A DNA stretch of 64,000 nt from Nitrospirales bacterium. GTDB lineage: Bacteria; Nitrospirota; Nitrospiria; Nitrospirales; UBA8639. The position numbers were made by a program, and so were the translations under genes. Under the pieces are notes generated by a model. That model was not told the DNA's origin and searched no databases. It saw only the letters and a list, made by a program, of their open reading frames with translations. The stretch covers positions 1 through 64,000 of the forward strand of contig BQIV01000016.1 in the NCBI GenBank assembly GCA_021604005.1, given 5' to 3'. Shown piece by piece: positions 6,313 to 56,866 of this stretch. Within the stretch, counting starts at the first letter, position 1. Every line of letters begins with the position of its first letter.

Positions 6313-6570
6313 ATGTTGCGGCTCACGACACTCCATGAGGGTCCCAGCACCGTGACCATCAAAATTGAAGGGTGCATCGATGCTGAAGGCGCGCGTCTCT
6401 TGGAAAAAGAATGTCGCAAACATCTTCGCCACCAGCAAAGCATCAGCCTTGATTGTACTTCCGTCACGTTTGTCGATCAGGTTGGAAAGGAGGCGCTGCA
6501 ACGCTTAGCGAGAGACAACGTACAGATTCTTAACTGTTCGGAGTTCATCGAAGAGTTGCTCCGTGAATAA
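6313..6570 (+). CDS. STAS-like small protein
   Basis: This product of about 85 residues has the alternating strand/helix pattern of STAS (anti-sigma-factor-antagonist) domains: TVTIKIEGCIDAEGARLLEKEC, then a later ISLDCTSVTFVDQVGKEAL. The latter corresponds to the region that carries the phosphorylatable Ser/Thr in classical family members, but here the usual DSSG-like tetrapeptide reads FVDQVG. That suggests a non-phosphorylated or degenerate STAS. It follows the sigma-54 activator on the same strand after a 170-bp gap. The frame stays open to 6277, but the extension looks non-coding. Its function is unknown. Confidence 0.6.
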   Translation: MLRLTTLHEGPSTVTIKIEGCIDAEGARLLEKECRKHLRHQQSISLDCTSVTFVDQVGKEALQRLARDNVQILNCSEFIEELLRE

Positions 6571-6893
6571 AGACTGAGGTGGCACCTGTGGTCGTGAGAC
6601 CAAATTCTGTGCGCCGAATGGCGATAAGACAACCGGCGCGATGAGGGCCCTGCGTTTGATCCTAGATTTTCCGGGCTTTAAGGGGCAACTCATCGGCTCT
6701 TGCACGGAGTTATTCATGTGGGGTTTCCACACCCGCGGTTTATAGGAGGGAGGTGTCTATGGTTCAAACAACATAAATAAAGGTACATGCAGAACGAGAA
6801 TTACCCTCAGATCGGAGCGCCCTCCCGATTCTGATGGAACCTAGGAGAAACACTGCAGGGCATAATCCATAGCTTGAATAAAGGAGATACATC
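6571..6893. other. intergenic, upstream of cytochrome P460
   Basis: This 323-bp stretch contains no supported gene. It ends with the P460 ribosome-binding site. A GG-N10-GC arrangement near 6679-6692 was considered as a sigma-54 promoter but its -12 half is poor. No hairpin with a T-run was found. Confidence 0.35.
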
Positions 6894-7523
6894 ATGCGTT
6901 CACAATCATTCGTTCGACCCTTACTGACACTACTCGGAGTGGCCGGATGCCTCGTTTTCCTATTCGGCATCATGGCGGCTCCCTCCATTGCCAAAAGTAA
7001 AGGAGACCGCGTCTATACCTTTAATGACAAAGACGAACTCCTTCAACCCTTGGATTGGGACGTGCCCTCGGATTGGCGGGAATGGGTGTATGTCGGGACG
7101 CCCCTGACCCCGAATGAATTGAATAATGGGAAAGCTTCATTTCCTGAATTTCATTCTGTGTACATTCACCCAGATCATTACAAGGTGTGGAAAAAGACCG
7201 GCGCCTGGCCAGATGGCACGATTCTGATTAAAGAAATGACGAGTGTTGGCTCCAAGCAAGCGGTGAGTGGACAAGGCTATTTTATGGGAGAGTATTTAGG
7301 GTTAGAAGCCACGATCAAAGATTCGAAGCGATTTAAAGATGAACCAGGCTACTGGGCCTATTTCAGTTGGACAGATGAAAAAGGGGGGCCTCGGAAGAAG
7401 ACAACGAAAGCCGAGCCGGCTGGCAAATGTAACATCTGTCACCAGGCGTTTGCCAAGGATGATTGGGTCTTCACGCAGTATTACCCAGTTCTCCGGGCAG
7501 CCAAACCCGGTCGAGGGAAGTAG
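6894..7523 (+). CDS. cytochrome P460-family protein
   Basis: Cytochrome P460 is a periplasmic c-type haem protein with a cross-linked haem that oxidises hydroxylamine (with NO) in ammonia oxidisers; its role in nitrite oxidisers is unclear. The 209-residue product has a long signal sequence (about 1-33), the family segments FPEFHSVYIHPD and PDGT..IKE (about 84-114), and a single haem site CNICH at 179-183 near the C-terminus, followed by the conserved FAKDDWVFTQYYP. The start is fixed by AAAGGAG. It is followed by the small secreted protein at 7591. A degenerate copy of its 5' and 3' ends lies at 14329-14535. Confidence 0.88.
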   Translation: MRSQSFVRPLLTLLGVAGCLVFLFGIMAAPSIAKSKGDRVYTFNDKDELLQPLDWDVPSDWREWVYVGTPLTPNELNNGKASFPEFHSVYIHPDHYKVWKKTGAWPDGTILIKEMTSVGSKQAVSGQGYFMGEYLGLEATIKDSKRFKDEPGYWAYFSWTDEKGGPRKKTTKAEPAGKCNICHQAFAKDDWVFTQYYPVLRAAKPGRGK

Positions 7524-7590
7524 AGTGAAGGGAAAGAGCCCAGATACGGAAAGTGAATACAAAAATTTTTCATCATGAAGGAGAAGTGTT

Positions 7591-7983
7591 ATGAATAAAT
7601 TTTTCACAGCAACCTGTCTTGGTATTGCTCTCCTAGCTGGAGGAACAGTCTGGGGCCAAGACGGAATCGCCACCACTCATCGGGACTCCATCCAAAAAGC
7701 GATGGGAAAACATATCGACGACCTAGTCGAATTAAATGGCAACGGGAAGTATCCGATATTTGATCCAGAATCTCGGTCCCTGCTGCAACTGAAGTTTAAA
7801 AAATTTCATGATTCCGTGGAAATCAAAGGGAGGGAAAATTCGTATTTTGTGAGCTGTGCCGATTTTGTTGCTGAGGATGGCACGCTCTATGATCTCGACT
7901 TTTTCGTCTCGAAAAACTATGGCGTCGTCTCTGCGCTTGTGCATTCAAAGAACGGTGTGCATTCAGAGTATGACATTCATTAA
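7591..7983 (+). CDS. small secreted protein of unknown function, paralogue A
   Basis: I do not recognise this 130-residue protein. It has a clear signal peptide (about 1-22) and a mature part rich in polar residues, with the conserved core YFVSCADFVAEDGTLYDLDFF and the C-terminal ALVHSKNGVHSEYDIH. A paralogue at 14599 is roughly 70% identical by eye across its full length, so the family is under constraint. The single cysteine in VSCADF is kept in both. The gene directly follows cytochrome P460 (67-bp gap) with a good AAGGAGA site, which points to a periplasmic role linked to P460. That link is inference from position and from co-duplication. Confidence 0.75.
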   Translation: MNKFFTATCLGIALLAGGTVWGQDGIATTHRDSIQKAMGKHIDDLVELNGNGKYPIFDPESRSLLQLKFKKFHDSVEIKGRENSYFVSCADFVAEDGTLYDLDFFVSKNYGVVSALVHSKNGVHSEYDIH

Positions 7984-8272
7984 GGGGATAGCAGGTAGAA
8001 GAGCATGGTTGTTTTCTTGAAAAGTGCATTAGTGAATGACATTTCACGTAACCGAAGTTGCTGAAACTGAACATCATCAAGTTTGCGATTTTTCACCATG
8101 AGGCTCCGCGAACTACGTGGGGCCTCAGTTCTCTTCCCAGCAATCCTTCGTTTAAGTGCGATGTATGCCAGCTGGGGCTCTTGGGCATAGACTGAGACCA
8201 TCGTTGAACATCGTAAAGGGAGGCCACACGTCATTCGACAGAGTGGGGACTACATGTTTAGGGAGTAAACTT

Positions 8273-9759
8273 ATGAATACATCTGATCACAAATCAGGTC
8301 ATCGTACTGACCAGAATATAAGGCCTTTATTTATCTTCAGAATCATGCCGTTGCTCGGCAACAGCACCGTGCGATCGAAGCGGCTAATAACGGCAAGTCT
8401 CTTTAGCTTGATTATCGGATTCACCGGACTGGTAATGAATGCTCATGCAGCAGACGGGCGTTTCCTTTACATCGAGAGTAATCATATAGCCGAAGGGCAA
8501 AACTCCATCCTTGCTTATGAAAGACAGGCGGATGGCAAGGTGAGGCTATTACCAGGCAGTCCATTTCTCACAGGAGGAACAGGCATAAACAACGATACGC
8601 ATGGGAAGCTTGGGCCAGATGATAATGATACCCCAATTGCGTTAAGTGAAGATGGGCGGTTCTTATTCGCGGTGAATACTCATAGCAATACCATTGCGGT
8701 GTTTAACATATTGGACGATGGCTCACTTCATCATGTGAAAGGATCGCCGTTTCCTTCGAGAGGTATCGGCCCGAATAGTCTGTCCGTCTCAGAGAATGTT
8801 CTACTCGTTTCCAATCGAAACGGCGATTACCATCAATTGGATAAGCTGCGCGGCGCGGCAAAAGCTAATTATGTTTCGTTCCGCGTGAATGACGATGGAA
8901 GTCTCACGTTTCTATCGGCAATAGACGTTGAAGGTGGTCATAAGCCGACACAGGTGTTTTTCTCAACCCCTCACAAGAGGATCGCGTTCGGGAACGATTT
9001 TCAGGTTGACGCTGATTTTGACGGAGATGGGAAACGCTCATGGCTCGCTGACCATGAACAAAAGTCCAGGGTCAATTGCATGCCTTTAAACTCGATGAAC
9101 GTGGCCATCTCGTTGAGACCGATCGGGTGACGTTACCTGAAACAGACCCAGGCCATTTATACGAAGGGTCACCTGGCGTACCGTCGCTTCCTTTGGGGAT
9201 ATGGGACCACCCGAAAAAAAATTTTCTCTATGTCGGATTTGTCACCCGCAATGAATTAGGCGTCTACCGGTATACCCACGAAGGGAAATTGACATTTCTT
9301 ACCTCGGTTCCTAACGGTGGACAAGACATTTGCTGGCTTCTTGCGAATAGGGCTGGCACGCGTCTTTATGCGGTGAATAACCTAAATCGGAAGGAAGCCA
9401 AGGACAAAGCGGGCTCCATTTCAATCTATGACATTTCAGGAGAGAAGGCAGAGCGTCCGGTGGAAATTGGCCGTGTGCAGACGCCCTTCCCTGGCGAGAG
9501 TTTCATTAACAATCGCATGTTTTCCCAACCCGGGAGCACGCCCTTTCAAATGGACTTAGACCCGGAAGAGAAGTTCTTCTACGTCATTAATCAACGTATC
9601 AATCAGATGCCTGAGAACAAGAGCACTGAAGGTAATTTTTTGCACATTTTCAAAGTCGAGAAGTCAGGATTGCTGACGCTACTTGATTCACGGGATTTGA
9701 GAAAGGACGGGGTTCCTAGCAAGTCACGTCCTCAGGGTGTGATCACACTCGATCGGTAA
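8273..9759 (+). pseudogene. secreted beta-propeller (lactonase-like) protein, split by a frameshift
   Basis: The two frames 8273-9130 and about 9060-9759 encode adjoining halves of one protein of about 495 residues. The product has an N-terminal signal region ending NAHAADG and repeats such as ALSEDGRFLFAVNTHSNTIAVF and DHPKKNFLYVGFVTRNELGVYRY, the pattern of YncE/lactonase seven-bladed propellers. The halves join at about 9062-9080, where loss of one base in the TCCAG tract turns the frame. Restoring one base gives continuous propeller sequence. The start at 8273 follows TTAGGGAG. It may be a true pseudogene or an assembly indel. Its leader (8234-8272) is repeated at 15041-15085. Substrate unknown. 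Confidence 0.75.
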
Positions 9760-9999
9760 CGGTGTGGTATCCGAGACAAAATAGTAGATCTGCAAGAGGA
9801 GGCGTCCAAGCCGAGATACATTTGGCGTAATCAGGCCTTGCCAAGGTCGAGAGAGTGAAGGCCAATGATCGTGACGGTGCAGCGTGGGGAAGTTGAGGGA
9901 TGAGTATGTTGAAGGCAAGGAAACTTTTCCAGATTACCTGCTGGCTTGCCAGTGGCGGTCATAAGTTCGTCGCACATTAGAAACGAGGAGGAAGCCAGT

Positions 10000-11505
10000 A
10001 TGAACAGCATGAGAATGAGTTCTGTGCTAATGAGAATGATAGCGATTTTGATCTTGTTCGGACCTGTTAGTGTGTTCGCAGAAGATCCCGGTGATCCTGC
10101 TCGCGGTAAAACAGTTTTTAAACTCTGTTCCACATGTCATCAGGTGGGCGACACGGCCAAGAATGCCTTTGGCCCTGTCCTGAATAATGTCGTTGGTCGA
10201 AAGGCTGGCTCCTACCCCGGGTACAGCTATAGCCCCAGCCTGCAGGAAGCAAACAAAAAGGGGCTGACATGGACCGAGGACCTGATCTTTCAATGGCTGC
10301 ACGGCCCATCTGATTTCGTGAAAGACTATCTCAAGAAACCAGATGCCGCCAGCAAAATGCCAATTATGGTGGCAGATCCTCAACAGCGCCGTGACGTGAT
10401 TGCGTATCTTTCGACGCTTACGCATCAAAGCCCTCACCAAGACACCGCAGGGCATGATATGAGCATGATGCCCGCCGTCTCGAAGGATGAGAAAGATCCT
10501 GTCGATAAACTTCCAAGAGTGAAGCTCGAACTGGTTGATCCGCCATTTTTGCCCAAACATACTCAAACGACGAGCGATGAGCCAAAAGTGGTGGAGGTGG
10601 AATTAACGGTGATGGAAAAAAAGTGGGTCCTGGATGATGAGGGCACTGAAATTGTCGCCCTGACCTACAATGGATCGATCCCTGCTCCAGCCATTGTCGT
10701 TCATGAAGGTGATTATGTTGAATTAACCCTGAAGAATCCATCAACCAATATGATGGAACACAATATTGATCTTCATGCTGTCACGGGAAAATTAGGGGGA
10801 GCTGCTATTACCACCGTCACACCAGGGAATGAAGCCGTAATGCGATTTAAAGCGACCAAAACCGGCACATTCTTGTACCACTGTGCGCCTGAGGGAGTTA
10901 TGACGCCTTATCATGTGACTCATGGTATGACCGGTGTCATCGTCGTTTTGCCGCGTCAGGGGCTGACAGACGATGAAGGGAAGCCTTTGAGCTATGATCG
11001 AGCATATTATATTGGAGAAAATGAATTTTATGTGCCACGCGATGCCAAGGGAAACTTTAAGCAATATAAGTTTTCAGGAGAAGATCTGAACGATTGGGTG
11101 GAGGCGATGCGTGGGCTGGTCCCATCTCATATTGTTTTTAACGGCCGTGTGGGTGCCTTAACAGGAAAGGGTGCCATGAAGGCTAAGGTTGGTGAGCGCG
11201 TGCTCTTCATCCATAGCCAGGGAAACAGAGCTACTCAGCCACATCTCATTGGCGGTCATGCTGACTATGTCTGGGAAACGGGTTCGTTTGCCTCTCCACC
11301 ACTAAAGGACGTGCAGACCTGGTTTATTCGAGGAGGTGCTGCGGGAGCGGCATTGTACACCTTTAGACAGCCAGGGTTGTACGTGTACCTTAATCATAAT
11401 TTGATAGAAGCGGTTGTGCTTGGCGCAGCCGGACATGTGATGGTGGAAGGGGAATGGGATCACGATTTATTAAAGAGCGTCTATCACGGACCTCTAAAGA
11501 AGTAA
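10000..11505 (+). CDS. nirK: cytochrome c-fused copper nitrite reductase (NirK)
   Basis: NirK reduces nitrite to nitric oxide in the periplasm. The 501-residue precursor has a signal peptide (about 1-27), a class I cytochrome c domain with haem site CSTCH at 43-47 and a probable Met ligand in SKMPIM (about 120-123), then a two-cupredoxin NirK. Copper ligands are all visible: type 1 His254, Cys295, His305 and Met310; type 2 His259, His294 and His466. The active-site Asp257 is present, and a catalytic His lies in PHLIGGH (415-421). The haem domain is N-terminal, whereas the best-known haem-tethered NirKs carry it at the C-terminus. The start is set by GAGGAGG. It sits between P460-related genes, with no nor genes in view. 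Confidence 0.93.
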
Positions 11506-11630
11506 GTCGTGTGCGCCGCGGTAGTAAACGGCAAGCTTCACAAGATTGTGTAGATATGATAGTCGAGGCAGTCTGTTGATGTTTGAGGATACTGCTGTCT
11601 GTTGGGTAAATTCTAATTAAGGAGATTTTT

Positions 11631-12233
11631 ATGAAATCCATCGCTATGCCTTTACTCCTCGCGTTGTTTGTCACCATGGGAATACTGGATGTGGCTTTCG
11701 CAGAAGAGAAGAAACCGTTTGCCCCGAATGTCAATATGGATACCGGCGCTATCAGCGTCCCTGAGGATTATTATCTGTGGCCAACATTGGGGACTTGGAG
11801 CCATAGCAAAGTTGATGATGAGGGTGCAGCGGTCATTCACGAGTATCATGTGGTCTACACGCAACCAGCAACGATCGAGTATTACAAAAAGAAACGGCGA
11901 TTCCCTGACGGTGCCGTCCTCGTCAAGGAACTTCTCCATGCCGAGAGCATGTCCATGACGACGGGGCCTGTCGTTGGGCATGGTACAACTCTCAAAGGAT
12001 TCTTTGTTCTCGTGCGGGATACGAAGGGACGTTTCAAGAGTTCAGCGTTATGGGGCGACGGTTGGGGCTGGTCGTTGTTCAATCCAGATGATCTCAAAAA
12101 AACCGTTTCGAAGAACTACAAAATTGATTGTATCCCGTGTCATACACCAGCCCTCGACCTGGCGCCCCGTAATGCTAAAAAAGATGATAAATGGATTTAC
12201 ACGCTTGGGTACCCTGTTTTTCGGGAGAAGTAA
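11631..12233 (+). CDS. second cytochrome P460-family protein
   Basis: This 200-residue exported protein has a signal peptide ending near residue 24 (VAFAEE). The P460 segment EYHVVYTQPA...FPDGAVLVKELL is at about 71-102 and a single C-terminal haem site CIPCH at 167-171, followed by KKDDKWIYTLGYPVF, which matches the tail of the P460 at 6894. Overall identity to that protein is low, so the two are old paralogues rather than the recent duplication. It follows nirK by 125 bp and has a clear AAGGAG site. It probably acts on hydroxylamine, NO or a related small nitrogen compound; this is inferred from family and context. Confidence 0.85.
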   Translation: MKSIAMPLLLALFVTMGILDVAFAEEKKPFAPNVNMDTGAISVPEDYYLWPTLGTWSHSKVDDEGAAVIHEYHVVYTQPATIEYYKKKRRFPDGAVLVKELLHAESMSMTTGPVVGHGTTLKGFFVLVRDTKGRFKSSALWGDGWGWSLFNPDDLKKTVSKNYKIDCIPCHTPALDLAPRNAKKDDKWIYTLGYPVFREK

Positions 12234-12338
12234 CGTGACTTATCAAAATAGCAACCAGACCTACGTATAGATCTCAGAATTCAATGACTGAAAAAAACCG
12301 TGTTCTTGACCTTTCATATTGATGGAGCAGTAGAAAAC

Positions 12339-13117
12339 ATGAATCTCAAAAAGAGAATCCTCATGGCTGTAATAGTACTTGTTCCGAGTCTGGGTTATTC
12401 TAATGAATCATCCATTTCAGACGTGAAACGTGGCATCACACCTCATGGATATGTGTACCAACAGGACTTCATGCCCAAACAAACGCCTGAGATTGACTTG
12501 GAGAGGACCGCCATCTTTATCACCGATCCACAGAACGACTTCCTATCCGAAGGGGGTGGGGCGTGGGGGCTGGTCGGGGAGCAGGTCGTGTCGAGTAAGG
12601 TCGTGGAGCATCAAGTCCAGCTGCGTGAAACAGCAAAAGCCGTGGGAATTCCCGTTTTCTACTCACCCCACATGTATACGAAGATGGACTATAAAAATTG
12701 GAAGAGCCTGAATGCGATCGACAAGCTCATGTTCCAGCAAAAGATGTTCATTAAGGGCACGTGGGGGCACGAGTTTCATCCCAAGCTCAAGCCCGATGAC
12801 AACACGATCGTCATGAATCCACACAAGGGACGAGCAACTTCTGGGCTGGTGACGCTGTGATTCAATTGCGGGAATACGGCATTGAGACGATCATCATGGC
12901 AGGGATGTCCGCAAATTTGTGCGTGGAGTCGCATACCAGAGATGCCATTGAAAATGGTTTTGATGTCATCATCGTGGCGGATGCCACAGCCGGAGCCGGC
13001 CCCTACTCCAAGAAAGCAGCGCTCATCAATTATGAATACATTGCACACGAAGTGGTCACCACCGATCAAATCATCAAGCGACTGCATCAAGCAAAGAAAG
13101 CGAGAGATGCTAAATAG
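12339..13117 (+). pseudogene. exported isochorismatase-like cysteine hydrolase, split by a frameshift
   Basis: The frames 12339-12860 and about 12830-13117 are two parts of one isochorismatase-fold hydrolase of about 260 residues. Family features are the first-strand Asp motif AIFITDPQNDF, a Lys-bearing KGTWGHEF segment, and the nucleophile-Cys region MAGMSANLCVESHTRDA. The break is at about 12828-12845, where one missing base changes NFWAGDAVIQL into an early stop; the next frame restores it exactly. An N-terminal signal (LMAVIVLVPSLGYSN) is unusual, since most relatives are cytosolic. All catalytic regions survive, so an assembly indel is as likely as real inactivation. Confidence 0.75.
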
Positions 13118-13150
13118 TTTTGAAAAATGAAGCTGTCTTGAAAACATGTA

Positions 13151-13184
13151 GTCACGAGGGATTCGAAAAATTATCCTACGTGAC
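13151..13184 (+). terminator. imperfect hairpin after the cysteine-hydrolase gene
   Basis: GTCACGAGGGAT (13151-13162) pairs with ATCCTACGTGAC (13173-13184) at 10 of 12 positions around a 10-nt loop. There is no T-run, so this may be a weak or Rho-assisted terminator or simply a hairpin. Confidence 0.35.
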
Positions 13185-13232
13185 ATCTCGACAATCCTCT
13201 CTATGGAAGTTCGTCAGTGCAGAGGGTTTGAG

Positions 13233-13246
13233 GGAAGTTCTGTTGC
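13233..13246 (+). promoter_or_regulatory. weak sigma-54 (-24/-12) candidate before the barrel gene
   Basis: GG (13233-13234) and GC (13245-13246) are separated by exactly 10 bp, and the -12 half reads TTGCT, a full match. The -24 half (GGGAAG) is poor. It would place a transcript start about 50 bp upstream of the barrel gene. No GTTAAC-type upstream repeats are present. Confidence 0.25.
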
Positions 13247-13308
13247 TGTGCAGTCAAAGCCGGGTTGCAGGTTAGGTCATGCTCTTGAGGGAGGAAAGGG
13301 ATGTCGAA

Positions 13309-14307
13309 ATGAAATTACGCCTTGTCATTGGGTGCAGACTGACCCTTCTGGTTTTACTTATTATGGGCACTCCGGCTTGGGCTGAATGGAAGGTTGAAGG
13401 TGAGGGCAATGTGTTTTATACCGATGATGTTGCGCTTTTCTCCGCGTCACAACGATTGTCCTTGCAGGAAGATCCCACCCAACCGGTGATTGATACTACC
13501 GATCAGGGTGACGATGTGGTCTTTGAACCGGCCATATCACTCGGCCGATCCTTTCAACCGTCCTGGGGCGATGTGGAACTGACCGTCAGAGCCCAAGGGT
13601 ACGTGTTCGCGGACCACTCTGAGTTTAACCATGGCACCTACGGGGCACAGATCACGCAAGCCCTTCCTGCGGAGACACTTCTCCGCTTGCGGTACCATTA
13701 CGGCCCTAACTTATTTGTGGGTAAGAATAGGGAAAAGCGAACCGGGAATGAACTCTTGGTGGAAGAACGAGTTACGACTCATTTTGGAACCGCAGAGCTT
13801 GAACACGATGTTCGTGAAACCCTTATGGTTCGCTTGCTAGGCCGTTATGGACACCGCTCGTATAACCAAGTTTTCAAACAACGAGACACCAACTTTTGGA
13901 CGGTGGGTACTCATGCCATATGGGAAATTATCCCGGGGGTTGAACTTGTTTTGGGCTATCATTACGAACGAACACTGGCCGATGGACGAAAAAGGCCTGA
14001 ACTTGAGGACGATATTTCTTCATTTATTCATTATGTCGTCGCAGAGCTAGAAGTGGAGGTAACAGAAAAAACCGCGGTCAAGCTTGCCTTTGACTTCGAA
14101 CGAACAAACTATACAACAGGGATTCCTGATGATGAGCGCCGGGATGGGAGCGAAAACATCTATCAGGGGGAGATTGAAGTGCGTCATGCCATTCACGAGA
14201 ACATTGATCTTTTGGTTGCGTATCTACGGGGACAGAGAAAATTCAGCTTTGAAGACCGTCAGGCGATCATCAATACGGTATGGATAGGCAGTGCGTTCCG
14301 ATTTTGA
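13309..14307 (+). CDS. outer-membrane beta-barrel protein, paralogue 1
   Basis: The 332-residue product has a signal peptide ending TPAWAEW (about residue 24). It then shows dense alternating beta-strand sequence and a C-terminal strand ending in Phe (WIGSAFRF), the recognition signal for the outer-membrane barrel assembly machinery. I do not recognise a named family. Conserved motifs shared with the paralogue at 55854-56866 include SLQEDPTQPVID, RLRYHYGPNLF and GRYGHRSYN. A third, fragmentary copy survives at 16768-16863. One copy sits with P460/NirK genes and one with periplasmic cytochromes and rhodanese genes, so it could be a porin or assembly platform for periplasmic redox proteins; this is speculation. 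Confidence 0.75.
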   Translation: MKLRLVIGCRLTLLVLLIMGTPAWAEWKVEGEGNVFYTDDVALFSASQRLSLQEDPTQPVIDTTDQGDDVVFEPAISLGRSFQPSWGDVELTVRAQGYVFADHSEFNHGTYGAQITQALPAETLLRLRYHYGPNLFVGKNREKRTGNELLVEERVTTHFGTAELEHDVRETLMVRLLGRYGHRSYNQVFKQRDTNFWTVGTHAIWEIIPGVELVLGYHYERTLADGRKRPELEDDISSFIHYVVAELEVEVTEKTAVKLAFDFERTNYTTGIPDDERRDGSENIYQGEIEVRHAIHENIDLLVAYLRGQRKFSFEDRQAIINTVWIGSAFRF

Positions 14308-14328
14308 CAAAAACGATAAGAGAAAACC

Positions 14329-14535
14329 AATGAACCCTAGTCTAACAAAGGCGCTATTGGTGGCGTTGCCGGGACAGTCGCCATGACGATGAAGTTGGTG
14401 CCCCCCGCTCATGCTTGGGAAACCCCTGGATGTTGCCCACAATTGGCAGCAGTCGTTTGTTAAGGATGATAGGGTCTTGACCTAATATGACCCTTGTCCT
14501 CAGAGGAGCCACACCGGGCCGAGGAGACTAGAGTG
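14329..14535 (+). pseudogene. degenerate cytochrome P460 copy (ends only)
   Basis: This stretch keeps a signal-peptide-like start (MNPSLTKALLVAL, then after a frameshift a segment ending PPAHAWE). It then jumps to sequence matching the 3' end of the P460 at 6894. QSFVKDDRVLT, a stop, and YDP correspond to the intact AFAKDDWVFTQYYP. The haem motif is lost (DVAH in place of CNICH), and about 450 bp of the middle are missing. Non-coding sequence after it (AGAGTGAAG, then GAGAACCCAGATA) also matches the P460-to-secreted-protein spacer at about 7520-7545. It is therefore part of a segmental duplication that has decayed. Confidence 0.75.
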
Positions 14536-14598
14536 AAGAAGGAGAACCCAGATAAGGCAGGCAAAAACGGACAACCTTCATCATCAAGGAGGTGTGTG

Positions 14599-14988
14599 AT
14601 GAATAAATTTTTTATAGCAACTTGTCTTGGCTTTGTTCTACTTACTGGAGGGATAGCCTGGAGTGGGGGAGTCGCAAGTACGCACCATGATGCCGTTCAA
14701 AAAGCGATGAAGCAACATATCCAAGGGCTGACCGAATTGAACGGCAATGGCACATATCCGGTGTTTGACCCTGAAACTCGGTCGCTCGTTCAACTGGAAT
14801 TTAAGGAGCTTCATGACAGTGTGGAGCTCAAGGGAAGAACGAATCAGTATTTTGTGAGCTGTGCCGACTTCGTCGCTCCCGATGGCACACTCTATGATCT
14901 CGACTTCTTCGTCTCGACGAAACATGGCGTGGTCGCCGCACTGGTACATTCAAAAAATGGGGTACATACAGACTATAACATTCGTTAA
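14599..14988 (+). CDS. small secreted protein of unknown function, paralogue B
   Basis: This 129-residue protein is the intact product of the duplicated segment. It shares with paralogue A (7591) the N-terminus MNKFF.ATCLG, the core YFVSCADFVA.DGTLYDLDFF and the C-terminus ALVHSKNGVH. Differences are mostly conservative (Ile/Val, Lys/Glu surface changes), so this copy seems to be under selection while the P460 and propeller pieces beside it have decayed. The start at 14599 is fixed by AAGGAGG. Its function is unknown. Confidence 0.75.
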   Translation: MNKFFIATCLGFVLLTGGIAWSGGVASTHHDAVQKAMKQHIQGLTELNGNGTYPVFDPETRSLVQLEFKELHDSVELKGRTNQYFVSCADFVAPDGTLYDLDFFVSTKHGVVAALVHSKNGVHTDYNIR

Positions 14989-15040
14989 ATGGTACGGCGC
15001 ACAGTTGATTAATTGAGAAGTGTATCATGATTGGACGTTC

Positions 15041-15085
15041 TTCGAGAGAGTGGGGGCTAAATGTTTAGGGGGACATAAGCGATTC
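15041..15085 (+). repeat. duplicated leader of the beta-propeller gene (non-coding copy)
   Basis: Sequence from TTCGAGAGAGTGGGGG onward matches 8234-8272, the leader and ribosome-binding region of the propeller gene (TTCGACAGAGTGGGGA there), over about 35 bp with few changes. No propeller coding sequence follows. This marks the right edge of the duplicated block. Confidence 0.65.
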
Positions 15086-15271
15086 AGTCGCAAATAGCAA
15101 AACTGTGAAAAACTATACAGGTCTTCATCTCGTCCCAGGGGAGAAAACCTCAGCAACATTGACCATTTTAGTTGCAGCATCAGAGAGAAATTCGCCTTTT
15201 TTCTTCCAAAAATTTTTTTGCGACAAAACCAAATAACGTTGGGCTTTGTCTCATCAAGGGAGAGATACACC

Positions 15272-16726
15272 ATGAGTGACAAAAAGAAGTTTACTACCAA
15301 CGCAGGCTGTCCCGTCGTGGATAACCAGAACGTGATGACTGCCGGCCCCCGGGGGCCCATGCTGCTCCAGGACGCATGGTTTCTCGAGAAGCTCGGTCAT
15401 TTCGACCGCGAGGTGATCCCTGAGCGTCGGATGCACGCCAAGGGATCGGGTGCGTACGGGACGTTCACGGTCACCCACGACATCAGCAAGTACACACGCG
15501 CGGATCTGTTTTCGAAGATCGGGAAGCAGACCGAATTGTTCGTTCGCTTTTCGACGGTCGCCGGTGAACGAGGTGCGGCGGACGCTGAGCGCGATATCCG
15601 CGGCTTTGCGATCAAGTTCTACACGGCTGAGGGGAATTGGGATCTGGTCGGAAACAACACGCCGGTCTTCTTTCTGCGAGATCCACTCAAGTTCGTCGAT
15701 CTCAATCACGCCGTGAAACGCGACCCGAAGACGAATCTCCGAAGCGCGTCGAACAACTGGGATTTCTGGACTCTTCTCCCAGAAGCGCTGCACCAGATCA
15801 CGATGACCATGAGCGACCGTGGCATTCCAGCGACCTATCGGCATATGCACGGCTTCGGAAGCCACACCTTCAGTCTGATCAATGCGAAGGGCGAGCGGCA
15901 CTGGGTGAAATTCCATTTTCGAACGCAACAGGGTATCCGGAACCTTAGCGACAAGGAGGCCACGGAGCTGATCGGGCGCGACCGCGAGAGCCACCAGCGC
16001 GATCTCTTCAAGAGTATCGAGAAGGGAGACCATCCTCGCTGGACGATGTTCATCCAGGTGATGCCCGAGAAGGAAGCCGCGACCTGTCCCTACAACCCCT
16101 TTGATCTAACGAAGGTCTGGTCCCACAAGGACTATCCACCGATCGAGGTGGGCACCTTAGAGCTCAACCGCAATCCGGAGAACTATTTCGCCGAGGTCGA
16201 GCAGTCTGCCTTCAACCCTGCCAACTCCGTGCCGGGAATCGGATTCTCACCGGACAAGATGCTTCAGGGCAGACTCTTCTCGTATGGTGATACCCAGCGT
16301 TACCGGTTGGGTGTGAACCATTCATCTATTCCGGTGAATGCACCTCGTTGCCCGGTTCATGCCTTTCACCGTGATGGCGCCATGCGAACCGATGGAAACC
16401 ATGGCGCAACGCTCAGCTACGAGCCGAACAGCTACGGCGAGTGGCAGGAGCAGTCCGATTTCTCGGAGCCGCCGCTCTCGCTCGAAGGGGCAGCCGACCA
16501 CTGGAATCACCGCGCGGACGACGACTATTACTCGCAGCCCCGTGCCTTGTTCCAGCTGTTGAGCGATGCAGAAAAGCAGGTCTTGTTCGAGAACACCGCG
16601 CGCGCCATGGGAGACTCCCCCGACGAAGTGAAGATCCGGCACATTCACAACTGCGCGAAGGCCGCCCCGGCTTATGGCGAAGGTGTCGCCAAGGCACTGG
16701 GTATCCCGATGAGCGAGGTACATTGA
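15272..16726 (+). CDS. monofunctional haem catalase
   Basis: This is a typical small-subunit catalase of 484 residues that dismutates hydrogen peroxide. The distal His is at about 55 ([12 protein letters not shown]), the distal Asn region is [11 protein letters not shown], and the proximal Tyr lies in [12 protein letters not shown]. The frame is open upstream, but AAGGGAGAG followed by ATG at 15272 sets the start; there is no signal peptide. Base composition differs from its neighbours: I counted 40/60 G+C at 15541-15600 and 36/60 at 16501-16560, against 29/60 at 14041-14100. It lies between two duplication scars, suggesting acquisition by transfer into a rearranged site. Peroxide defence fits a cell rich in haem and Fe-S proteins. 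Confidence 0.95.
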
Positions 16727-16767
16727 GGAGACGAGAGCAATGGCATCAATAGAACTCCCCGTACCAA

Positions 16768-16863
16768 TACTCGATTGGAGCACACGAGCAGCGAAAATTT
16801 ACCTTTAAGCTGAGCACAGTCTTCGTGGATACCGTCTGGATCGGCAGCGCCTTTCGATTTTGA
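16768..16863 (+). pseudogene. C-terminal scar of a third outer-membrane barrel gene
   Basis: In one frame this stretch encodes QRKFTFKLS and then DTVWIGSAFRF followed by a stop. The last 26 residues of the barrel protein at 13309 read GQRKFSFEDRQ...NTVWIGSAFRF. DNA identity is moderate, so this comes from a diverged copy rather than a recent repeat. No start or upstream barrel sequence is present. It directly follows the catalase gene. Confidence 0.7.
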
Positions 16864-17031
16864 AGGCAGTTCCTCAGGGGAGTTCCAGGAATCCAATTTC
16901 TAATGAAAGGCTGGCTCGTTTGATTCGTTTAACCCGTGGTTCTCTCAATTGAACAATCTTCCTCTTTTCGCATGGATGACGTTGTTGTTCTAATTTTCGG
17001 CTGGGGCTCTTTCGTCTATTTGCTGAGCTGT

Positions 17032-18376
17032 ATGACTGACAGAGCTGACATTCTTGATGTAAAGGGCTGCCGTAAGGATCTGATTGGCTGCCAGGATTGT
17101 GGGCATATCTTTGATAAGCCTGCTTGCCAACATGGCGACGAGTTAAGTTGTCAGCATTGCGGTGCCTCGTTATTCATGCTTCGTCAAAATTGGCTTCCGA
17201 AGCTGACGGCATTGACTCTGACAGGAATCATTTTATTTCCCGTACCCCTTTCGTTTCCGTTTCTTGGATTGGAGGCTGCAGGGCAAACGCAGACCAGTCA
17301 TTTATTAAGTAGTGTGAGAGCACTCTTTGAGCGAGAACAATTTTTGTTAAGTGCTCTCATATTTATGACGATTTTTCTGTCTCCCTTATTGGAGCTTGTC
17401 GGGCTTTCTTATGTGCTGGCATCGCGATTACTGAATTATCGCTTTCCGAGGTTGAGGGACGTGCTCCGCTTCCTTTTTTGGATCCGCCCCTGGAATTATG
17501 ATGGAAATTCTTTTTTTAGGTATGTTGGTGACCACGATAAAGTTGCAGGGCCTCGCGGAATTGCAGATAGGTGTTGGTGTGTGGGCTTTTGCCGCCTTAG
17601 TCATCGTTCTAACGGCGAGCCATTTGCAACTCAGTCGAGAAGATCTTTGGGAATGGGTCAAAGAAGAAAATTACTATGGTGTGCAAAAGGATGTTTCATC
17701 GGAGAATTATGAAGAGGAGTTGGTTTCTTGCCATAATTGTCGTGCGCTAGTGGCGAGTTCCTTGATAGAGGCTGACGCCCACTGCCCTCGTTGTCAGTCC
17801 TCGTTGCATTTTCGTCTACCAGAAAGCTACCAACGTACGCTCGCGTTATTGATCGCAGGGGCGGTGTTGTACATTCCGGCCAATACGCTGCCTATTATGA
17901 CCACGACCCAGTTTGGCGTGACGACCTCAAACACAATTTTTTCTGGGGTAGTCCATTTGCTTGAAACCGGCAGTTTCCTGATCGCGGGAGTCGTATTTGT
18001 CGCCAGTATGGTTGTCCCTCTGGCGAAATTTCTCGGGATGGCCTATTTGCTGTGGGTTGTGAAGTATCCTGGCATCGGAAATCCTCGTCAGCAGACAGCC
18101 CTCTATCGGTTGATCGAGCTTGTCGGGTGCTGGTCAATGGTCGATGTCTTTGTGGTGGCGTTGTTGGTGGCCCTGGTTCAATTTGGGGTGTTCACCTCTG
18201 TTGAACCAGAATTAGCGATTCTGTGTTTCGGTGCAGTCGTGGTGCTCACGATGCTCGCAGCAGAAACATTTGACCCGCGATTAATTTGGGATGCGTATCA
18301 TCGTGCAGAAGTGCCCAAAGGGCAACGTGGCCATGAACAGACATCGATAAGTGGAGAGATGGGACGAACAACCTGA
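17032..18376 (+). pseudogene. pqiA: PqiA-family membrane protein, split by a frameshift
   Basis: PqiA is the inner-membrane partner of the PqiABC lipid-transport system. Two frames (17032-17712 and 17498-18376) together encode the normal double repeat: a zinc-ribbon-like CxxC...CxxC segment plus four membrane helices, twice (CQDCGH...CQHCGA and CHNCRA...CPRCQS). The first frame should run from RDVLRFLFWIRPWN straight into MMEILFLGMLVTT. One extra T in the AATT at about 17496 shifts it. All domains are intact on either side, so this may be a sequencing or assembly error. pqiB follows 21 bp after the stop. The 5' start is uncertain because no good ribosome-binding site precedes 17032. Confidence 0.8.
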
Positions 18377-55853: not shown

Positions 55854-56866
55854 CTATTGGAATTGATAACGAAGCCCTCCATGCACATTTACGTCAATGA
55901 CGGCCGCGATTCAAAGCTTGTTTTGCGTTGCGATCGTTGGACCCCCGCATTGACTTCGAAGGCATTTGAAAGCATGTGACGAATTTCCACGTCACCTTGA
56001 AACACATCTTCGGTCGCATCCTTTCGCTCATCGCCCGTTATATCGCTCGTGAAATCATTCCGCTCATAGTGAAACGCCAGCTCTACGGACGTCGCTTCAC
56101 AGACCTCGACTTCAAGCTCCGTGGACACGTAATGATTGATGTAGAAGACATCGTCACGAAATTGCGGCTCGTTTCTTCCATCCGCCACTCCACGTTCAAA
56201 ATGATAACCGACGGTTAATGCGATCTCCGGCCATAGTTTCCATTCCACGTGTGGCCCAACGGTCCAAAAGCTGGTATCCCGGTGTGCAAAGTTCTCGTTA
56301 TATAGACGGAGCCCATAACGTCCCAGCACACGGAGCGTGAGCGTATTTCCTAGGTCTTGTTCAATGGTCCCGGTCCAGAAATGCGTGGTAATCCGTTCTT
56401 CAACCAGTTCCTCTCTCTCAGATCGACGACTTTCATTATCTCCTAAGAATAAATTGGGACCGTAGTGATACCGCAGGCCAAGCGTGAACTGAGAGGGTAA
56501 CGTGTGTTCAAGCCTGAGCCCGTATGTTCCATGGGTAAAACGGGATTGATCGGCGAAAATAAATCCTTGTCCGCGAACAGAGAGGGATGTTGTTCCTACT
56601 CTATTGTTCCATGTTTTCCCGATGATCAAATCAGGTTCGAAGACACTATCCGAGCCTTGGCCGGTGACATCAATGACAGGCTGCGTGGGATCCTCCTGCA
56701 ATGACAACCGGCGGGATGAGGAGAATAGGACTACATTGTCGGTGTAATAGAACGTACTCTCGACTTCGGACGACCATTCCGCCCAACAAGGTGGCCCCCC
56801 AAATTCGGACCACATCACTCCTGCCAACAGCGTAAGGACAGTCCCATGCCACAGTTTCCGCTTCAT
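55854..56866 (-). pseudogene. outer-membrane beta-barrel protein, paralogue 2, frameshifted near its 3' end
   Basis: This paralogue of the barrel at 13309 has a signal peptide ending CWAEW, the shared motifs SLQEDPTQPVID, RYHYGPNLF and TTHFWTGTIEQD, and similar length. The open frame stops at 55889, but one frame over the sequence continues AVIDVNVHGGLRYQFQ to a stop at 55854. That restores a proper barrel C-terminal strand (aromatic at the next-to-last position). One base is missing in the GCGGCCG tract around 55906. It may be an assembly error; otherwise the truncated protein would lack its assembly signal. It is the last gene of the P1 operon. Confidence 0.75.

Follow-up and report, generated by a model that had tools for sequence, protein, structure and literature searches.

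A small predicted-secreted protein gene retained in an eroded duplicate of a cytochrome P460 gene unit in a Nitrospirales bacterium

Tandem duplication of a gene unit can be followed by partial retention, in which one gene of the unit is kept and the rest become pseudogenes or are lost. The locus described here resembles that pattern, but the retained gene encodes a small putative accessory protein rather than the enzyme, and the gap has been filled by a gene of other composition. The enzyme concerned is cytochrome P460 (PF16694; Nitrosomonas europaea, PDB 2je2/8gar), which is described in passages of a 2025 review (PMC11928373) as oxidising hydroxylamine to NO/N2O; those passages mention no small P460 partner, and a term search of the review gave no match to 'operon', 'accessory' or 'gene cluster'. 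Nor is a small partner named in the titles among the matches listed for cytochrome P460 in the Nitrospira and nitrite-oxidizing literature. The intact enzyme gene at our locus, P460a, is a true member of this family by sequence (CxxCH present; E 6e-52 and 8.5e-52 to PDB 8gar/2je2), and a member of the same family gave rise to the gene stump at 14439. The small predicted-secreted protein (SSP) encoded next to each is unrelated in sequence to cytochrome P460.

The window, that is, the whole stretch of DNA analysed, comprises 64,000 nt of contig BQIV01000016.1 from the 4.7-Mb assembly of a Nitrospirales bacterium (Table 1). A sequence-only reading had proposed a decayed segmental duplication in which the order P460 3' end, spacer, small secreted protein, spacer, propeller leader recurs from 14320. 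Aligning 6894-8330 with 14300-15110 by blastn returned two collinear pieces, 7432-8039 against 14439-15033 (437/608 identities, 72%, E 1e-104) and 8228-8263 against 15035-15070 (E 1e-6). The repeated order is thus present, with recognisable P460 homology starting at 14439. Similarity beyond chance extends outside the small gene into non-coding flanks: compared with 2,000 shuffles each, the P460 tail scored 83 (best shuffle 7), the spacer between P460 and SSP 50 (best shuffle 14) and the leader block 52 (best shuffle 12), whereas the flank just 3' of SSP2 (7984-8039 against 14989-15033) was weaker, its score of 11 equalling the best shuffle. The leader block is common to both window copies and to the corresponding locus of G001, a genome of the same genus (L013 10227-10296); with both strands of the window scanned, its next best match is 22/36, and it may represent a regulatory site. 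SSP1 and SSP2 are the only SSP copies in the assembly.

Table 1 Features of the first unit, the remains of the second unit and the intervening catalase gene
Feature	Coordinates	Strand	Remarks
P460a, intact cytochrome P460, 209 aa	6894..7523	+	First gene of ancestral unit; Pfam PF16694 E 2.6e-27
SSP1, small predicted-secreted protein, 130 aa	7591..7983	+	67 bp downstream of P460a
Propeller leader block, original copy	8228..8263	+	Ahead of propeller gene; recognisable also in G001
Lactonase-type beta-propeller gene	8276..9759	+	PF10282; two frames, single-base indel near 9060
OMP, predicted outer-membrane beta-barrel	13279..14307	+	Last gene of ancestral unit; BBP2_2 below cut-off
Stretch between OMP stop and P460 stump	14308..14438	+	No match in own genome or to P460a 5' end
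Stump of second P460a, 3' end only	14439..14531	+	Haem motif (CxxCH) lost; TAA in frame and one additional base; 68/92 identical
P460-SSP spacer, copy 2	14532..14598	+	46/67 identical to copy 1, ungapped; Shine-Dalgarno-like AAGGAGG
SSP2, intact paralogue, 129 aa	14599..14988	+	72% identical to SSP1
Propeller leader block, copy 2	15035..15070	+	31/36 identical; no propeller gene after
Catalase	15272..16726	+	G+C ~0.58 versus ~0.48 for region; occupies expected propeller-to-OMP place of second unit; absent from G001 locus
Stump of second OMP gene, last 25 codons	16789..16863	+	DNA 71% over 77 columns, E 9.7e-7; tblastx 64%, E 2e-7

Most details of the proposed decay hold as well. The second P460 gene has indeed lost its haem motif and the propeller coding sequence is gone, leaving the small protein, intact at close to the identity first estimated (about 70%), as the sole survivor of the second unit. 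For P460, a loss of about 450 bp had been put forward; it is instead the 5'-most 538 bp of the gene that can no longer be recognised. Comparison of 14308-14438 with the 5' end of P460a gave a score within those of shuffles, and remains of a P460 signal peptide at 14331-14430 are unsupported. The second unit also lacks approximately 190 bp of the interval that separates SSP2 from the leader block.

A third mark of duplication, new relative to the earlier list, lies behind the catalase gene, where the 3' end of a second OMP gene is preserved. Its last 69 bp match OMP at 45/69 positions ungapped, the next best site in the window on both strands reaching 34/69; a protein search of the organism's own genome also returned it at 58%, but with an E value of only 0.0147. 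The same search listed a full-length OMP paralogue (match at 55892-56803, 52% identity; minus-strand gene at 55889-56866). Its C terminus differs from that of OMP and comes earlier, which leaves OMP itself as the closest counterpart of the stump.

Because the P460 tail, SSP2, the leader block and the OMP stump stand in the order of the first unit, with the P460 tail and the OMP stump marking both unit ends, the most satisfactory reading of the locus is the tandem duplication of a P460a-to-OMP unit measuring approximately 7.4 kb (~6.9-14.3 kb), the second unit of which has eroded. The G001 locus reads sigma54-P460a-SSP-propeller-isochorismatase-(410 aa)-OMP-pqiA-pqiB, with each gene present once and with no SSP2 or catalase gene intervening between OMP and pqiA. 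One alternative is that a short dispersed segment (P460 tail, SSP and leader) landed at the 3' end of OMP, the OMP stump then being a by-product of the insertion or of the arrival of catalase. The recognisable remains of the second unit amount to less than 0.9 kb of ~7.4 kb, and blastn and tblastx found no remains of the middle genes (propeller, cytochrome c-NirK, P460b and isochorismatase) in 14989-15271 or 16727-17058, as such an insertion would have it. We nevertheless consider it improbable, since all the marks keep the order of the first unit, and the OMP stump repeats precisely the end of the gene bordering the duplicate, an arrangement that a single step of tandem duplication accounts for. 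In the tandem history, the P460a-to-OMP unit was duplicated; the haem site and the 5' part of the second P460a disappeared, and the propeller-to-OMP part was lost except for the 25-codon stump, its place now being occupied by a catalase gene of different composition. Under purifying selection, SSP2 has kept an open reading frame, a ribosome-binding site and an N terminus resembling a signal peptide.

Several further observations concern the gene content of the region. An ORF at 9946-11505 encodes an N-terminal cytochrome c domain fused to a two-domain NirK-like multicopper oxidase; it adjoins a second P460 gene (11631-12233) and is missing from the syntenic G001 locus. Conversely, a 410-aa gene in the G001 gap between isochorismatase and OMP (L013 12733-13965), with weak similarity to the C domain of squalene-hopene cyclase, is absent from the window. 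The propeller, isochorismatase and pqiA genes are each split by a single-base indel (~9060, 12830 and 17490) relative to intact G001 genes, the intact propeller relative being 495 aa long; these indels are either assembly errors or fresh decay. No Rfam family was found in 6500-17500. The highest-scoring match to the catalase among the 48 genomes of the family is 56% identical (G003), and a second catalase in the organism's own genome (C71) is 52% identical. G001 is without catalase, and Ca. Nitronereus thalassa lacks catalase according to passages of PMC10579370 that make no mention of P460.

The duplication is real, old and eroded, and as an evolutionary event it is ordinary. SSP1 and SSP2 differ with a dS of 1.11, and window genes differ from their G001 counterparts with a dS of 1.06 (pqiB), 1.21 (OMP) and 1.95 (P460a), values that lie above 1 and hence near saturation. 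On this rough dating, the duplication is about as old as the split from G001, or somewhat younger. SSP1 and SSP2 have a signal peptide and spacer in common and are mutually nearest rows in the tree by path distance, not by a resolved fork. Most quartet sites with G002 as the fourth row group SSP1 with SSP2 (6 versus 2 versus 1 protein columns; 20 versus 8 versus 10 nucleotides). With G024a, G024b or G030 as the fourth row this grouping is not favoured, and with G065_126 the protein columns favour SSP1 with G001 (1 versus 3).

We found SSP2 to bear the marks of selection. The synonymous and non-synonymous rates of the two paralogues, a comparison suggested by the sequence-only reading, give a pairwise dN of 0.175 and a dN/dS of 0.16, beside a dN/dS of 0.126 between SSP1 and its G001 counterpart. 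On the SSP2 branch, changes on which both outgroups agree comprise 15 non-synonymous (N) and 14 synonymous (S), an approximate omega of 0.38 given a neutral ratio of ~2.8 (P 0.008); with G001 as sole outgroup the counts are N 26 and S 20 (P 0.008). The SSP1 branch has N 8 and S 9 (14 and 18 with G001 alone), with P 0.016 for its branch test, and the N/S proportions of the two branches do not differ (Fisher P 1.0 and 0.36). The SSP2 branch is longer than that of SSP1 (0.32 versus 0.11; replacement changes 26 versus 14, chi-square 3.6), so that constraint on SSP2 may have relaxed somewhat or its role may have changed. SSP2 retains each of the 25 columns that do not vary in an 11-row alignment, necessarily so as it is among those rows; measured against the columns invariant in the other ten, it deviates at one (Arg31).

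The stump of the second P460 offers a local measure of decay. It differs from P460a at 6/4/14 first, second and third codon positions (10/61 at first and second positions together, 14/31 at third). In the same 92 bp, P460a and its G001 counterpart differ at 0, 1 and 18 sites, so the excess of first- and second-position change lies on the stump's branch. The pattern as a whole is nonetheless coding-like, which implies that the stump was under constraint for a time before it died. This suggests that the death of the second P460 came considerably later than the duplication itself and that SSP2 has stood alone for only part of the time since, timing arguments that rest on the 92 bp of stump and on saturated dS. 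We simulated neutral drift at the stump's rate, with SSP1 as ancestor, the same clock and the uncertainty in the stump's rate included. The SSP frame was still open in a fraction of 0.14, whereas an open frame combined with no more than 24 replaced residues (a threshold that is an approximate reading) and no more than one change in the 25 conserved columns occurred in 0.00135.

Could SSP2 simply be on its way out, looking intact because the adjoining P460 died recently, with selection now gone? A decay of P460 younger than the duplication, as the stump's coding-like pattern indicates, would fit that account, as would the longer SSP2 branch and the neutral survival (0.14) of an open frame of this length. 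The joint outcome of the three simulated features is far rarer, however, and the Shine-Dalgarno-like sequence of SSP2 is intact, and we regard recent release from selection as an unlikely explanation. The selective survival asserted in the earlier reading is borne out, and purifying selection on SSP2 is supported by these sequence comparisons.

What the protein does is less readily read from its family, which is undescribed in the libraries searched: no Pfam or NCBIfam model matched SSP at cut-off. An NCBIfam ExtJ match (E 0.037) was rejected, as it covers only residues 1-30, the signal-peptide region, of one distant row, and a Pfam PorA match (E 0.045) and PDB matches at E 0.23 and above were at chance level, as were promoter- and terminator-like matches around SSP2. 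AlphaFold2 models of three SSP rows had a mean pLDDT of 46, too poor for a fold search. In a 19-row alignment read by inspection, which leaves out G085, G093 and a partial second G316 match and is thus incomplete for the distant set, Asp58, Cys89, Asp103 and His118 occur in 19/19 rows and His73 in 18/19. A metal, haem or thiol role of these residues is possible.

The distribution of SSP among relatives ties it to P460a within the family and loosens that tie beyond it. SSP is carried by 6 of the 48 family genomes, at nine places, and by none of the other 42; genes of the P460a type (at least 66% identity) occur in those same six genomes at eight places, and at 8/8 of these SSP lies 67-92 bp downstream. 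This co-occurrence has P 8e-8, a statistic that ignores kinship. The ninth family copy is SSP2, the only one without an intact P460a. At the three places in genus g9 (L016, L017 and L041), a truncated-globin gene follows SSP, and DsrE and ECF sigma genes lie upstream; these neighbours, like those in G038 described below, speak for a haem or N-oxide context. G024, of this genus, also has duplicate P460a-SSP pairs, 11.4 kb apart. The likeness to our locus is that the same gene pair was duplicated within ~11 kb; in G024, however, both P460a genes are intact and the SSP copies form a separate, younger pair (dS 0.65). The SSP of G065 contig C228 (L042 7018-8111) groups with that of G002 (L014), from another genus, with support of 99/96, which hints that the P460a-SSP pair moves laterally. 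No relatives were found in plasmids (with SSP2 as query) or in viral contigs, and genome_contigs yielded only OFTM51 (= G002).

In a draw of 395 genomes from the phylum, 13 carry SSP. Eight of the 13 are without any P460 hit (G038, G041, G228, G350, G093, G316, G370 and G379), a check apparently made in the same 395-genome draw, and in G076 and G085 a P460-like gene lies on another contig than SSP. Distant SSP homologues, mostly without P460, have genes for a MauG-like peroxidase, a cytochrome c or an ECF sigma factor as neighbours: a MauG-type peroxidase and a cytochrome c gene lie beside SSP in G038, and three f4 loci have cytochrome c and FGE-domain neighbours in common, with a MauG-type peroxidase at two. 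These homologues argue that the SSP family can work without P460. P460a-like genes at 47-53% identity were found at 11 places in other genera of the phylum (nine places belong to genus g12, family f3), in genomes without SSP, so P460 does not need SSP in general.

These patterns bear on the further claim of the sequence-only reading, that the survivor has a function of its own. Such a claim agrees with the distant homologues that lack P460 (8/13), but goes beyond the evidence: within the family, SSP otherwise always follows an intact P460a, P460a at 6894-7523 is available in trans, and the selected SSP2 gene may serve it. Alternatively, SSP2 could have acquired a role unconnected with P460; it might, for example, contribute to peroxide defence together with the neighbouring catalase, or partner a different haem enzyme, as its distant relatives seem to do. 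Homologues in genomes lacking P460, the cytochrome c and MauG-type settings of the f4 loci and the faster evolution of SSP2 relative to SSP1 all fit a new role. There is no sign of a specific partner, however; the catalase starts 283 bp downstream and differs in composition, and N/S does not differ between the two branches. We hold a change of role to be rather doubtful, if somewhat less so than an SSP2 on its way out.

We infer instead a periplasmic location, a haem-enzyme helper role and action of SSP2 with the remaining P460a. SSP would be a periplasmic accessory of cytochrome P460 encoded in the same operon, probably helping, by assembly, protection or ligand delivery, a haem enzyme that handles hydroxylamine or NO, and may act through its one invariant Cys and the conserved His and Asp residues. 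SSP2 would then have been retained because it supplies P460a in trans with an additional dose or a variant, expressed separately from the first. Taken as a whole, the tandem history with SSP2 kept as a helper serving P460a is the account that we favour, with moderate confidence.

A protein that travels with P460a, is duplicated or moved with it and here outlasts it is a concrete candidate partner for the enzyme, and the locus illustrates the extent of erosion that a tandem unit can undergo while selection maintains a single gene. More tentatively, SSP may define a family, so far undescribed, of periplasmic proteins in Nitrospirota that help haem enzymes, acting with P460 in relatives of nitrite oxidisers and with other haem proteins, such as the MauG type, in other settings. 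If that broader reading is true, the window would present a natural experiment, with a helper persisting after the loss of its enzyme.
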